The notes under the pieces: model-generated
The model's input: only the letters and a program-made list of their open reading frames with translations
Database searches by the model: none
Told to the model about the DNA's origin: nothing
Shown: piece by piece, positions 18,547-45,857 of the stretch
How positions within the stretch are numbered: position 1 is the stretch's first letter
Layout of the letters: the number at the start of each line of letters is the position of its first letter
Assembly: GCF_022899355.1 (NCBI RefSeq)
Contig: NZ_JALJCK010000004.1
Coordinates: 186,001 to 250,000, forward strand
Length of the DNA stretch: 64,000 nucleotides
Direction of reading: 5' to 3'
Origin: Shinella yambaruensis
GTDB lineage: Bacteria > Pseudomonadota > Alphaproteobacteria > Rhizobiales > Rhizobiaceae
Program-made: the position numbers and the translations under genes

Positions 18547-18589
18547 TTTACAAATGAAGTTAAACGTTTTTATTATGATATAAACGTTT
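18547..18589 (+). promoter_or_regulatory. Sugar operon promoter with two LacI-type operators
   Basis: A -35 element TTTACA (18547-18552), an 18-base spacer and a -10 element TATTAT (18571-18576) form a good sigma70 promoter. The palindrome core AAACGTTT occurs at 18562-18569, between the promoter elements, and again at 18582-18589, over the start point, with centres 20 bases apart. The second copy reads ATATAAACGTTTAACA. The palindrome with a central CG is typical of LacI/GalR family operators, and the operon encodes such a repressor at its end. Confidence 0.82.
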
Positions 18590-18635
18590 AACAAGGGCTG
18601 GGAGCCCGGACGTTTCGCCGACAGGGAGGACGTCG

Positions 18636-19778
18636 TTGGCATCGATCCGCATCGAGAATCTCCGCAAGGGTTTTGGCGCTCTGGAGGTGCTGAAGGGCAT
18701 CGACCTCGATATCGCCGATGGTGAATTCGTCTGCTTCCTCGGCCCCTCCGGCTGCGGCAAGAGCACGCTGCTGCGCTCCATCGCCGGCCTGGAGGAACTG
18801 GACGGCGGCGCCATCCGCCTCGGCGACCGCGATATCACCCATGTGCCTTCCGCCAGGCGCGACATCGCCATGGTCTTCCAGAACTATGCGCTCTACCCGC
18901 ACATGAACGTGCGCAAGAACCTCTCCTTCGGCCTGGCGCTGAACGGCATGAAGCGCGACGAGATCGACCGCCGTGTCGAAAGCGCCGCGGACATCCTGCG
19001 CATCAAGGAATTGCTTGCCCGCAAGCCGCGCCAGCTCTCGGGCGGCCAGCGCCAGCGCGTCGCCATCGGCCGCGCCATCGTGCGCGAGCCGAAACTCTTC
19101 CTGCTCGACGAGCCGCTGTCGAACCTTGACGCGGGCCTGCGCGTCACCATGCGCGTCGAGCTTGCCGCCCTGCATGCCCGCCTCGGCGCGACCATGATCT
19201 ACGTGACGCACGACCAGGTCGAAGCGATGACGCTCTCCGACCGCGTGGTCGTGCTCGACAAGGGCGAGGTCAGCCAGTTCGGCACGCCGCTGGAGCTGTT
19301 CTATCAGCCCGCCAACCTCTTCGTCGCCGGCTTCATCGGTTCGCCGCGCATGAATTTCGTGGAGGCGGAGGTCGCGGCGCAGGAGGGCGTGCACATCACG
19401 CTGTCGGGCGGTGGCCTGAAACGGCCGGTCGTCTTCGAGGCGGAAGCTGCGCCCATGATTGACGGCAAGGTCACACTCGGCATCCGGCCGGACAGGATCG
19501 AGATCGTCCCGCCCGGCGAAGGGGAACTGACAGGCATCGTCCGCCTCGTCGAACGGCTCGGTACGGAAAGCCATGTCCATCTCAGCCTCGAGGATGGCCG
19601 CGACATGACGGCGGTGGTGCGCGGCACGCATCCGGTCGCGAATGGCGAGACGGTCCATCTGAGGCTGCCCGCGCCGCATTGCTACCTGTTCGACGCGGAA
19701 GGCCGGGCGGTGCGCCGCCGCCTCGATGCGGAGACCGAGGCGCTCATCGTCAACGAGAAGGGCAAGCGGGTCGCCTGA
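18636..19778 (+). CDS. Sugar ABC transporter ATP-binding protein (UgpC/MalK type)
   Basis: A 380-residue ATPase of the carbohydrate uptake CUT1 class. It has Walker [10 protein letters not shown], signature LSGGQRQRV, Walker B LFLLDEPLSNLD and a C-terminal regulatory/TOBE domain (about 240-380) as in MalK and UgpC. The start is a TTG preceded by AGGGAGGA, five bases away; no ATG is better placed. It is the first gene of an operon encoding a full importer, a glycosidase and a LacI regulator. ATPases of this type may serve several importers. Confidence 0.93.
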   Translation: MASIRIENLRKGFGALEVLKGIDLDIADGEFVCFLGPSGCGKSTLLRSIAGLEELDGGAIRLGDRDITHVPSARRDIAMVFQNYALYPHMNVRKNLSFGLALNGMKRDEIDRRVESAADILRIKELLARKPRQLSGGQRQRVAIGRAIVREPKLFLLDEPLSNLDAGLRVTMRVELAALHARLGATMIYVTHDQVEAMTLSDRVVVLDKGEVSQFGTPLELFYQPANLFVAGFIGSPRMNFVEAEVAAQEGVHITLSGGGLKRPVVFEAEAAPMIDGKVTLGIRPDRIEIVPPGEGELTGIVRLVERLGTESHVHLSLEDGRDMTAVVRGTHPVANGETVHLRLPAPHCYLFDAEGRAVRRRLDAETEALIVNEKGKRVA

Positions 19779-19800
19779 CCCGTCAAAGGAGGAAATGGGA

Positions 19801-43496: not shown

Positions 43497-45152
43497 ATGT
43501 CGTTCGTCAGAAGCGTGAGGCCCAGCAATCTGGTGATCCTCGCCGCGTTGCCCTTCATCGTCTACCTGTTCGCCGCGTCGGCGGACTACCAGCGTTCCCT
43601 GCGCGCCATCCTGGGCGTGGAGCTGGGGTCGGGCGCCTTCGTGCCGGGGTTCCTGCTGCTCGCGGTCGCCTTTTCCGCCGGTTTTGCGGTGCTCGTCCTG
43701 TCGCGCGGCACGCTGGCGTGGCCGCGCCTCACGATGGCGGTGGGCCTTGCGGGGCTTCTGGCGACAGCCGCCATTCTCGCGGGTGATCTCGTCCATCCCT
43801 TCATCGCCTCGGTCGTCGCGAACGGTGTCGATCCCTTCAAGTCCGATCTCGTCGTCAAGGGTGCGACGCCCCGCCAGTTGACGGATGCGGCCGATCTCAT
43901 GGTGCGCGGCGTGGAGGCCTGGCTCTGGCCGGCCTATGCCGTGCTGCTCGTCGCGGGCCTCGGCCTCACCTTCGCCGGCAGCCGCGCGCCGGTTCCGGCG
44001 GAAAGCCGCCTGCGCCGGGCAGGCGCGTGGCTGCTTGGCCTCGTCAATGGCGCCGGCCTTGTCTTCGTCTTCCTCTTCGCCCACCTCGCCTTCGCCTCGG
44101 GCCTTGCCACGACCATCCGCGCGGCCATCGCCGCCTATATCCTCGCGGCCATGCTCGGTCTCGTCTGGGTGGGGCTCCTGAAGCTGCGCTATACGCGCCG
44201 GAGCCTCTATTTCTTTGCGGCGATGACACTCGCCTTTGCCGCGCTCTCCGCCTGGTTCCTGATGCAGCCACGCGACAACTACGTGCTGGCCGGCACGCTG
44301 GAGGGCAAGGTGGGCATCATCACCGGCACCCCGTCGGGCCTCATCGGCGCCGTGCGCTTCGGCCAGTACGAGGGCGGCCCGACCACCGAGACGCCGGTGC
44401 GGACCTTCGTCACGCCCGAGCAGGCGATCGAGGCGATCGGTAGAAAAGAGGATGTCAGCGGCGCGTTGTTGCCTGCCGCGGCCGCGCCCGCCGACTGGCC
44501 GCGCCTCTGGCAGGTCGAGGCGCTGAACGATCGCGACCGCGCCGCCGGCATCACCTTCGCCGTCATCGCCATTGTGGCGGGCCTCTTGACCTTCGGCGGT
44601 TTCCTGCACCGCCGCCATCCGCTGTCCATCGGCTCGGAATTCATCGTCGATACGATCCGCGGCATTCCGATGCTCGTCATCGTGCTCTATGTCGGCCTGC
44701 CGCTTTCCGGCGCCTTGAAGGATGCGACGGCCGGCGTCTTCGATCCGCCGAACCTGATCCGCGGCATCGTCGCCATGGCCATCGCCTATTCCGCCTATCT
44801 TGCGGAGATCTTCCGCTCGGGCATCAACGCCATCCCGGCCGGGCAGATCGAGGCGGCGGGCAGCCTCGGCCTCAACCGATGGCAGACGGCGCGGCTCGTC
44901 ATCCTGCCGCAGGCCTTCCGCATCGTCATCCCGCCGCTCGGCAACGAGCTGATCGCCATCCTGAAGGACACTTCGCTGCTGTCGATCCTGTCGATCCGCG
45001 ACATCACCCAGCGCATGCGGGAGTTCCAGTCGGCGAGCTTCCTGCCGTTCGCGCCCTATAACTCGGCGGCGATCCTCTACATCCTGCTGACGCTGGCGGC
45101 GGCAAGCCTCATCAGCCTCATCGAGAAGAAATATGACACCAAGCACCGCTGA
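43497..45152 (+). CDS. Amino-acid-type ABC permease with long N-terminal extension
   Basis: A 551-residue permease, more than twice the usual 220-240 residues of HisM-type proteins. The conserved transport domain is at about residues 375-545 (EFIVDTIRGIPMLVIVLYVGLPL, and EIFRSGINAIPAGQIEAAGSLGLNRWQTARLVILPQAFRIVIPPLGNELI with the EAA-type loop). The first 260 residues contain about six to seven hydrophobic helices, then a soluble segment at about 262-345 resembling a lobe of a binding protein (GKVGIITGTPSG, TPEQAIEAIGRKEDVSGALLP). The start ATG 43497 follows GGAGG by six bases. No second permease or ATPase gene follows; the ATPase must be encoded elsewhere. Confidence 0.88.
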   Translation: MSFVRSVRPSNLVILAALPFIVYLFAASADYQRSLRAILGVELGSGAFVPGFLLLAVAFSAGFAVLVLSRGTLAWPRLTMAVGLAGLLATAAILAGDLVHPFIASVVANGVDPFKSDLVVKGATPRQLTDAADLMVRGVEAWLWPAYAVLLVAGLGLTFAGSRAPVPAESRLRRAGAWLLGLVNGAGLVFVFLFAHLAFASGLATTIRAAIAAYILAAMLGLVWVGLLKLRYTRRSLYFFAAMTLAFAALSAWFLMQPRDNYVLAGTLEGKVGIITGTPSGLIGAVRFGQYEGGPTTETPVRTFVTPEQAIEAIGRKEDVSGALLPAAAAPADWPRLWQVEALNDRDRAAGITFAVIAIVAGLLTFGGFLHRRHPLSIGSEFIVDTIRGIPMLVIVLYVGLPLSGALKDATAGVFDPPNLIRGIVAMAIAYSAYLAEIFRSGINAIPAGQIEAAGSLGLNRWQTARLVILPQAFRIVIPPLGNELIAILKDTSLLSILSIRDITQRMREFQSASFLPFAPYNSAAILYILLTLAAASLISLIEKKYDTKHR

Positions 45153-45810
45153 CACAGGAACCGTGCTTGTCACCGGTGCCGGGCGGGGCCTCGGCCGGGC
45201 GCTGGCCGATCTCTATGCGGCAGCCGGCTGGCGCGTCATCGCCTGCACGCGGCAGGGGACAGGCGATGCCCCGCCGCTCGATGTGTCGGACGCGGTCTCG
45301 ATCGCCGCGCTCGGGGACCATCTGGCGGGCGTGCCGATCGATATCGTCATCAACAATGCCGCGATCCGCGGCGATACCGGCGGCCTCGCCTCGCTGGAAA
45401 CGCATGGTTTTCTGGAGGTCATGCGCATCAACGCGCTCGCCCCGCTGCTCGTCGCCCGGGCGCTCAGGCCCAATCTCCTCGCCGGCAGGCGCCGGGTGAT
45501 CGCCAATATCGGCAGCCGTGCCGGCTCGCTTGCGGAAGGTACGATCGATGACGAGGACGGCGACTATGCCTATCGCTGCTCCAAGGCGGCGCTGAACATG
45601 GCTACGGTCAAGCTGGCGCAGGATTTCCGGTCCGACGGCATCGTCGTCCTCTCGCTGCATCCCGGCTGGGTGAAGACGGATATGGGCGGCACGGAGGCGG
45701 CGGTCGAGGTAGTGGAAAGCGCCCTCGGGCTGAAGCGGCTTATCGACGGCGCGACGATGGCAGAGACCGGAAGCTTCAGGGCCTATGACGGCCGGACGGT
45801 GCTCTGGTAG
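45133..45810 (+). CDS. Short-chain dehydrogenase/reductase
   Basis: A 225-residue SDR. The cofactor loop TGAGRGLGRAL, the NNAA motif at VINNAAIRG, the Ser region ANIGSRAGS and the catalytic YRCSK (Tyr-x3-Lys) are all present. It starts within the permease gene (20-base overlap), so it is translationally coupled to the transporter and probably oxidises or reduces the imported compound or a derivative. Substrate and cofactor preference are not clear. Confidence 0.9.
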   Translation: MTPSTADTGTVLVTGAGRGLGRALADLYAAAGWRVIACTRQGTGDAPPLDVSDAVSIAALGDHLAGVPIDIVINNAAIRGDTGGLASLETHGFLEVMRINALAPLLVARALRPNLLAGRRRVIANIGSRAGSLAEGTIDDEDGDYAYRCSKAALNMATVKLAQDFRSDGIVVLSLHPGWVKTDMGGTEAAVEVVESALGLKRLIDGATMAETGSFRAYDGRTVLW

Positions 45811-45830
45811 CCGCCCGGCCCGGCGGAATT

Positions 45831-45857
45831 TTGAACAGTGATATAAACGTTTATATT
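45831..45857 (+). promoter_or_regulatory. Beta-galactosidase promoter with LacI-type operator
   Basis: The 16-base perfect palindrome ATATAAACGTTTATAT (45841-45856) lies between TTGAAC (45831-45836) and TATATT (45852-45857). It is the most complete copy of the operator and should be a strong binding site for the LacI regulator encoded at 24590. Confidence 0.83.

Follow-up and report, generated by a model that had tools for sequence, protein, structure and literature searches.

The genome of Shinella yambaruensis (6.87 Mb) carries, within the 64-kb stretch of DNA analyzed here (the window; G000:C29:186001-250000), three gene units that are very probably controlled by a single LacI-family repressor. 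The first is an operon for a sugar-type ATP-binding cassette (ABC) importer (K, SBP1, P1 and P2), a glycosidase (MGH1) and LacI itself; the second encodes an amino-acid-type ABC importer (SBP3 and PERM3) and a short-chain dehydrogenase/reductase (SDR); the third is the gene of a glycoside hydrolase (GH) of family 42, GH42 (Table 1). LacI has the helix-turn-helix (HTH) and the periplasmic-binding-like sensor domain that a LacI-family local regulator requires, and its gene has its best named relatives in Shinella (98% in S. granuli). The catalytic, trimerisation and C-terminal GH42 domains are all present in the GH42 protein. The amino-acid-type unit was not seen to encode a partner ATPase for PERM3, and no signal peptide was apparent on MGH1 by eye. 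Among the 35 LacI proteins of the genome just one lies in the window (C29:210602, window 24602), as the initial annotation of this DNA had stated; the other one encoded on C29 lies outside it.

Table 1. Operators, genes and neighboring features of the regulon (window coordinates)
Feature	Position	Strand	Remarks
Operator O1, importer operon	18558..18573		core 18562-18569; between -35 TTTACA and overlapping -10 TATTAT
Operator O2, importer operon	18578..18593		core 18582-18589; 20 bp from O1
K, MalK/UgpC-type ABC ATPase	18636..19778	+	Pfam ABC_tran, TOBE_2; NF008653 UgpC subfamily, 458.6 bits (cut-off 432)
SBP1, sugar-type solute-binding protein	19726..21033	+	Pfam SBP_bac_1; likely start downstream of listed open reading frame (ORF) start
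P1, sugar ABC permease	21123..22067	+	
P2, sugar ABC permease	22060..22872	+	
MGH1, GH63-type glycosidase	22869..24575	+	Pfam MGH1-like_GH, 167.1 bits
LacI-family repressor	24590..25621	+	Pfam LacI HTH and Peripla_BP_3 (on ORF 24338-25621)
tRNA-Gly(CCC)	25826..25899	+	left border of insertion
16.6-kb stretch outside the regulon	25901..42513		unmatched in S. granuli L008 and other compared Shinella loci; parts lacI from amino-acid-type unit
Operator O1, amino-acid-type unit	42516..42531		core 42520-42527
Operator O2, amino-acid-type unit	42538..42553		core 42542-42549; 22 bp from O1
SBP3, amino-acid-type (family 3) solute-binding protein	42690..43436	+	ATG 42690; Pfam SBP_bac_3
PERM3, amino-acid-type ABC permease	43479..45152	+	
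SDR, short-chain dehydrogenase/reductase	45133..45810	+	
Operator, GH42 gene	45841..45856		core 45845-45852; perfect palindrome ATATAAACGTTTATAT
GH42 beta-galactosidase	45918..47939	+	Pfam Glyco_hydro_42, 510.7 bits; solved GH42 1kwg, 726.6 bits

A common operator heads the three units

The window contains six copies of the operator core AAACGTTT, where 0.31 are expected, and none of 100 shuffles reached six or more. Five copies are AT-flanked (A or T at 7 or 8 of the 8 flanking positions, counted by eye) and stand at the heads of the three units, in agreement with the initial annotation. The sixth, at 24130, lies within the MGH1-like coding sequence and has no AT flanks, so the annotation's claim that the motif occurs nowhere else in the window holds for the AT-flanked form and fails for the bare core. 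The pattern WWWWAAACGTTTWWWW is matched five times with at most one mismatch, and once more, with two, at 58654. Across the whole genome the AT-flanked 16-mer is rare: allowing one mismatch there are seven sites, against four for the control, and five of the seven are the window operators; both zero-mismatch sites lie within the window. The remaining two are on C31, approximately 290 and 70 bp upstream of the HTH region of other lacI genes.

A promoter scan with 16–18 bp spacers reports TTTACA-18-TATTAT at 18547-18576, which brackets the first importer operator, and TTTATA-18-TATATT at 42525-42554, which overlaps the amino-acid-type doublet. At the head of GH42 the scan reported no pair; TTGAAC and TATATT are recognizable there by eye. 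Since these hexamers are 15 bp apart and were unreported by the scan, the promoter at 45831 is weaker evidence: the placement of an operator between the -35 and -10 elements, proposed earlier for both sites, stands at 18547 and is less secure at 45831.

The operator is conserved in related loci and tracks lacI

Scanning named genomes yielded 57 loci with a LacI relative. We counted cores within 300 bp upstream of each gene, taking for a gene those loci that have it on the same strand, at 45% identity or more, with a match beginning no later than residue 60 and with at least 300 bp of upstream sequence. K has the core upstream in 32 of 37 loci, SBP3 in 20 of 24, GH42 in 30 of 43 and lacI in 9 of 54. 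The core is never found upstream of genes inside the units (SBP1, P1, P2 and MGH1, 0/33 each; PERM3, 0/23; SDR, 0/18): with dcd set aside (0/8), the count is 0/173. The next best 8-bp palindrome upstream of K, SBP3 and GH42 reaches 5, 3 and 6 loci, respectively. All 45 of the 45 core pairs less than 40 bp apart (57 loci plus L073) are spaced by 20–22 bp, about two helical turns. Six of the lacI matches come from Shinella loci that lack the importer and have the operator directly before lacI; the other three are in Pseudovibrio, with a LacI of 51–52% identity. K lacks an upstream core in L048, L056 and three Pseudovibrio loci, and SBP3 in L049 and the same three Pseudovibrio loci, where it stands behind another unit gene.

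The operator is kept at the same places in Shinella, Rhizobium, Ensifer/Sinorhizobium and Mycoplana, and partly in Rhodobacteraceae, Maritalea and Pseudovibrio. Clustering the genes of 54 loci (L055, L061 and L064 excluded) gave 11 clusters present in at least 23 loci; these are exactly the regulon genes and the fused enzyme described below, and the next cluster is in 14 loci, mostly of Ensifer/Sinorhizobium. All eleven genes occur together in 6 of the 57 loci, in one row in Oceanicola (L049). Locus edges clip many of the others, and absences near an edge are therefore not losses. In four loci (L043, L044, L011 and L021) a LacI ortholog is the sole regulon gene of the locus; nine neighbors scanned in L043 look unrelated. 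Pseudovibrio L058-L060 encode LacI (51–52%), SBP3 and PERM3, with a GH1 glycosidase next in L058.

Co-occurrence with LacI in related genomes, a check that the initial annotation had proposed, was assessed in 199 Rhizobiaceae genomes, with a close LacI defined by an E-value of 1e-120 or better (up to 10 candidates scored per genome) and the strict site as ATAWAAACGTTTWTATH. A close LacI is present in 7 genomes, the strict site in 11 and both in 6, that is, the site occurs in 6 of 7 genomes with the LacI ortholog versus 5 of 192 without it (Fisher p 4e-8, a value that overstates independence because the sampled genomes are related). In five of the six genomes having both, the site and the LacI gene are no more than approximately 20 kb apart; LacI without the strict site was seen in one genome, G106.

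Site positions, conservation, spacing and LacI co-occurrence agree, and on this comparative basis we consider a conserved regulon of one LacI and three units, with an operator at each head, very probable. The earlier proposal of a regulon joining the sugar importer, the MGH1-like hydrolase, the amino-acid-type importer, the SDR and GH42 is thus upheld: the operator is conserved at unit heads, missing inside the units, and follows lacI.

S. meliloti carries a copy of the locus on pSymB. In strain ml56 it lies near exoP, exoO and exoA; pSymB of strain 1021 carries this DNA too, with the importer doublet present. The ml56 locus encodes a second LacI (L075:2297-3430; 48% identical, with the same recognition stretch SIATVSKAL), which precedes SBP3 and stands behind one AATAAAAACGTTTATATT site (AAACGTTT core) and a degenerate second site; judging by sequence, one operator type may serve two repressors in this strain. 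SMb20973 is listed as a transaminase (PMC12542648); the locus-tag prefixes gave no match in the main text of papers on pSymB and S. meliloti metabolism.

Several observations weigh against a single regulon. Genome-wide, the bare core is no commoner than chance (26 copies versus 28 for a reversed-pattern control), the AAACGTTT that ml56 has before GH42 was not found in S. meliloti 1021, and GH42 lacks an upstream core in 13 of 43 loci, in 12 of which it follows closely behind another unit gene (L051 does not). In G153 the strict site is on a different contig from the LacI genes. Finally, other lacI genes of the genome carry related sites with different flanks: further AAACGTTT doublets or palindromes are found at C7:47165/47188, C22:195579 and C32:10640/10665, those on C7 and C22 directly preceding lacI genes, and are perhaps operators of LacI paralogs. 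With 35 LacI proteins in the genome, such cores near other lacI genes, and a pair of repressors in ml56 that makes operator sharing plausible there, the window sites could be bound by another paralog, or by several. We regard this as highly improbable: the non-window sites differ in their flanks (CCAAAACGTTTTGG, TGATTAAACGTTTAATCA), and just one of the 20 core sites outside the window, near the lacI gene on C22, has A or T at six or more of eight flanking positions; the second S. meliloti LacI, used as a query on this genome, finds the window LacI at 48% and all others at no more than 35%; and the site set tracks the window lacI both in its neighborhood and in its occurrence among genomes.

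A probable insertion accounts for the 27-kb spread

The three units are spread over 27 kb, as first annotated; the distance itself needs a different reading. Homology with S. granuli L008 ends at 25900, at the end of tRNA-Gly(CCC), and restarts at 42514, at the operator of the amino-acid-type unit. Five other Shinella loci with both ends (L009, L010, L014, L045 and L057) have no match to the intervening 16.6 kb either, and the simplest reading is therefore an insertion in this lineage, apparently between lacI and the amino-acid-type unit. No second copy of the tRNA end was found in window 42001-42560 (14 bases compared, at most 2 mismatches allowed), and the scanned ORFs of 25901-42513 include no integrase. 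The cargo comprises IclR regulators, a TonB receptor, FecCD-type and ABC genes, a luciferase-like monooxygenase, TctABC, MmgE/PrpD, SMP-30 and RraA-like genes.

The importer operon is itself variable. In S. granuli an internal deletion corresponds to window 18822-24142, and the importer is absent at the locus in six further Shinella loci (L010, L011, L014, L021, L045 and L057). Gene stubs remain beside lacI (MGH1 in L016, L017 and L018; K and MGH1 in L008), which indicates repeated loss of importer genes. Downstream of GH42, a long mechanical ORF (48074-50977) has an SBP_bac_3 match confined to its end (approximately 50.27–50.96 kb); a glycosyltransferase gene lies opposite, at 48104-50038.

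Relatives encode a fused kinase/phospho-lyase

Between SDR and GH42 in Rhizobium, and at corresponding places elsewhere, lies a gene for a protein of approximately 1,000 residues with APH kinase, M23 and class III aminotransferase domains (NCBIfam PRK06148, 'hypothetical protein'). The clustering places it in 28 of 54 loci; L046, L048 and L049 have more divergent forms, that of L049 without an M23 match. The last domain is closest to known phospho-lyases (human ethanolamine-phosphate phospho-lyase 6tor, 482 bits; bacterial phospho-lyase 5g4i, 303.8 bits; next match, 194.5 bits) and on this sequence likeness is assigned to the AGXT2L type; the kinase domain had no match in the PDB up to E 0.1. 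According to PMC9283133, AGXT2L1 acts on phosphoethanolamine and AGXT2L2 on phosphohydroxylysine.

Of 21 Shinella genomes, 4 encode the fused enzyme at 75–83% identity. No LacI reaches E 1e-120 in the Shinella genome G199, where the fused gene (L100:8184-11198) is flanked by a MatE gene and a metallophosphoesterase; a trans-3-hydroxy-L-proline dehydratase gene (654 bits, cut-off 550) is nearby on the other strand, and a glycerol-3-phosphate-dehydrogenase-like gene is also close by. This context can be read either way, as use of collagen amino acids or of phosphoesters and ethanolamine. An order-wide search (E 1e-260, up to two candidates scored per genome) returned 5 of 397 genomes (L102-L106) at 43–45% identity, too distant to be used.

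The substrate

MGH1 belongs with GH63 by its Pfam match and by its fold matches, which include YgjK and the mannosylglycerate and glucosylglycerate hydrolases, and its motifs SGWDN and AENF, which we take to contain the catalytic acid and base, are invariant in 15 of 15 aligned rows. The top fold match of the MGH1 model (mean predicted local distance difference test score, pLDDT, 87.5) is E. coli YgjK, at 14–15% identity over two domains; ranks 2 and 3 are 3w7w, a complex with 2-O-alpha-D-glucopyranosyl-alpha-D-galactopyranose. This likeness is a match of predicted fold and no proof of substrate. Among solved proteins the nearest by sequence are TTHA0978 (58.7 bits; annotated as mannosylglycerate hydrolase) and a mycobacterial relative (47.5 bits; annotated as glucosylglycerate hydrolase), and YgjK is not among the seven matches.

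The solved proteins closest to SBP3 are amino-acid binding proteins, both ancestral and natural ones; its AlphaFold model is poor (mean pLDDT 61.9). Its arginine R100 is kept in 12 of 12 aligned rows. In this family we take this Arg to hold the ligand carboxylate, and an Asp to bind the amino group. Seven loci (L014, L018, L020, L027, L042, L045 and L057) keep SBP3-PERM3 and GH42 with the sugar importer absent at the locus, which suggests that the amino-acid-type importer may supply the GH42 substrate.

Since the fused enzyme would consume an amino-alcohol aglycone, we lean slightly towards a (glucosyl-)galactosylated amino compound as the most likely substrate. The initial annotation's 'possibly one unusual galactoside' was a fair guess and may be sharpened to a galactoside joined to an amino compound. 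More tentatively, the regulon could be a bacterial pathway for the Glc-alpha-1,2-Gal-beta-O-hydroxylysine of collagen, with import, deglucosylation by the GH63 enzyme, degalactosylation by GH42, and a kinase and phospho-lyase acting on hydroxylysine (or a paralog doing so, e.g. in this strain); Glc-alpha-1,2-Gal is linked to hydroxylysine in collagen, as stated in PMC8626586 and PMC11012932. Two points speak against these proposals. The window strain has no fused kinase/lyase, the best copy in its genome being a paralog of 42% identity over the full length, and in SBP3 the Asp expected to bind an alpha-amino group is replaced by Asn in 22 of 25 rows, which argues against a plain alpha-amino acid ligand.

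An ordinary beta-galactoside or galacto-oligosaccharide, with the amino-acid-type importer, SDR and fused enzyme as passengers, is the least unlikely of the alternatives. GH42 and the sugar importer would suffice for it, SBP1 weakly matches a galacto-oligosaccharide binding model (72.6 bits, cut-off 700), and in five Maritalea/Pseudovibrio loci (L050, L051, L053, L054 and L056) the importer, MGH1, LacI and GH42 are present and SBP3, PERM3, SDR and the fused enzyme absent at the locus. However, the SBP3 operator is as conserved as the others, and the seven loci that pair SBP3-PERM3 with GH42 lack the sugar importer at the locus. The aglycone might instead be ethanolamine or another carboxyl-free amino alcohol, no amino acid: the lyase domain has the human ethanolamine-phosphate enzyme as its closest PDB match, and the G199 gene stands amid the MatE, metallophosphoesterase and glycerol-3-phosphate-dehydrogenase-like genes. 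Retention of the presumed carboxylate-binding R100 and the hydroxyproline dehydratase gene next door in G199 count against ethanolamine, which we consider rather unlikely. Improbable, in our estimate, is a glucosyl- or mannosylglycerate-type MGH1 in a regulon for a glycerate glycoside. Such a ligand, a carboxylate with no alpha-amine, would fit the Arg and Asn pair of SBP3, and the nearest solved sequences of MGH1 are of this type, but MGH1 scores just 66.7 bits against the glucosylglycerate hydrolase model NF047898 (cut-off 550), and GH42 and the fused amino-alcohol enzyme would be left unexplained.

Model and comparison with known systems

From the gene content and site arrangement we infer LacI binding, repression, an inducer, the cytoplasmic location of the enzymes and the substrate. 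LacI would bind the 16-bp palindrome ATATAAACGTTTATAT heading the three units and repress them, including its own gene through the 18.6-kb operon; with site pairs spaced by 20–22 bp, two dimers would sit on the same face of the helix and span the -35/-10 region, and an inducer derived from or imported with the substrate would release the repressor. The glycoside could be imported by two ABC routes, one sugar-type and one amino-acid-type, and opened in the cytoplasm by the GH63-type alpha-glycosidase and the GH42 beta-galactosidase. In many relatives the fused APH-kinase/phospho-lyase of the same unit would then consume the amino-alcohol aglycone. As a regulatory system this is a conserved regulon of a familiar type, and interest centers on its substrate.

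The PurR box of E. coli shares the AAACGTTT operator core; the window operators differ from it by their A/T flanks and their glycoside-gene targets. With AglR and ThuR, LacI-family regulators of local regulons in Rhizobiales (PMC4052901), the present system has in common a LacI-type repressor beside a sugar ABC importer/hydrolase operon and a CG-centered palindromic operator. They are described as controlling the regulator gene and one other operon, through the cores AAAGCGCTTT and AAAnCGnTTT, whereas here there are three units and the core AAACGTTT. By E-value the MGH1-like model is closest in fold to GH63 YgjK (5ca3, 3w7w), with Glc-alpha-1,2-Gal bound in 3w7w; by sequence MGH1 is nearer to the mannosyl- and glucosylglycerate hydrolases. 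In PMC9061262 the natural substrate of YgjK is assumed to be an alpha-glucoside other than nigerose.

Our analysis provides an operator and a gene list for an apparently undescribed rhizobial regulon, including the S. meliloti pSymB copy near the exo genes. Among the matches listed in the open-licence literature, with the supplement of PMC4052901 not covered, we found no description of this regulon or of a bacterial pathway for glycosylated hydroxylysine. If the aglycone is hydroxylysine, the regulon would be a bacterial route for glycosylated hydroxylysine, and a function would be suggested for the PRK06148 fused proteins. In animals a hydroxylysine kinase is reportedly part of the collagen route, as known from the title of a 2012 paper. 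The animal route further comprises the glucosidase PGGHG (PMC8626586 and PMC11012932) and the phosphohydroxylysine lyase AGXT2L2 (PMC9283133). The order of steps proposed here would be the same: glucose off, galactose off, phosphorylation of hydroxylysine and elimination. The proteins differ in that PGGHG is a GH65 enzyme and MGH1 a GH63 enzyme, and in that kinase and lyase are fused in the bacterial relatives.

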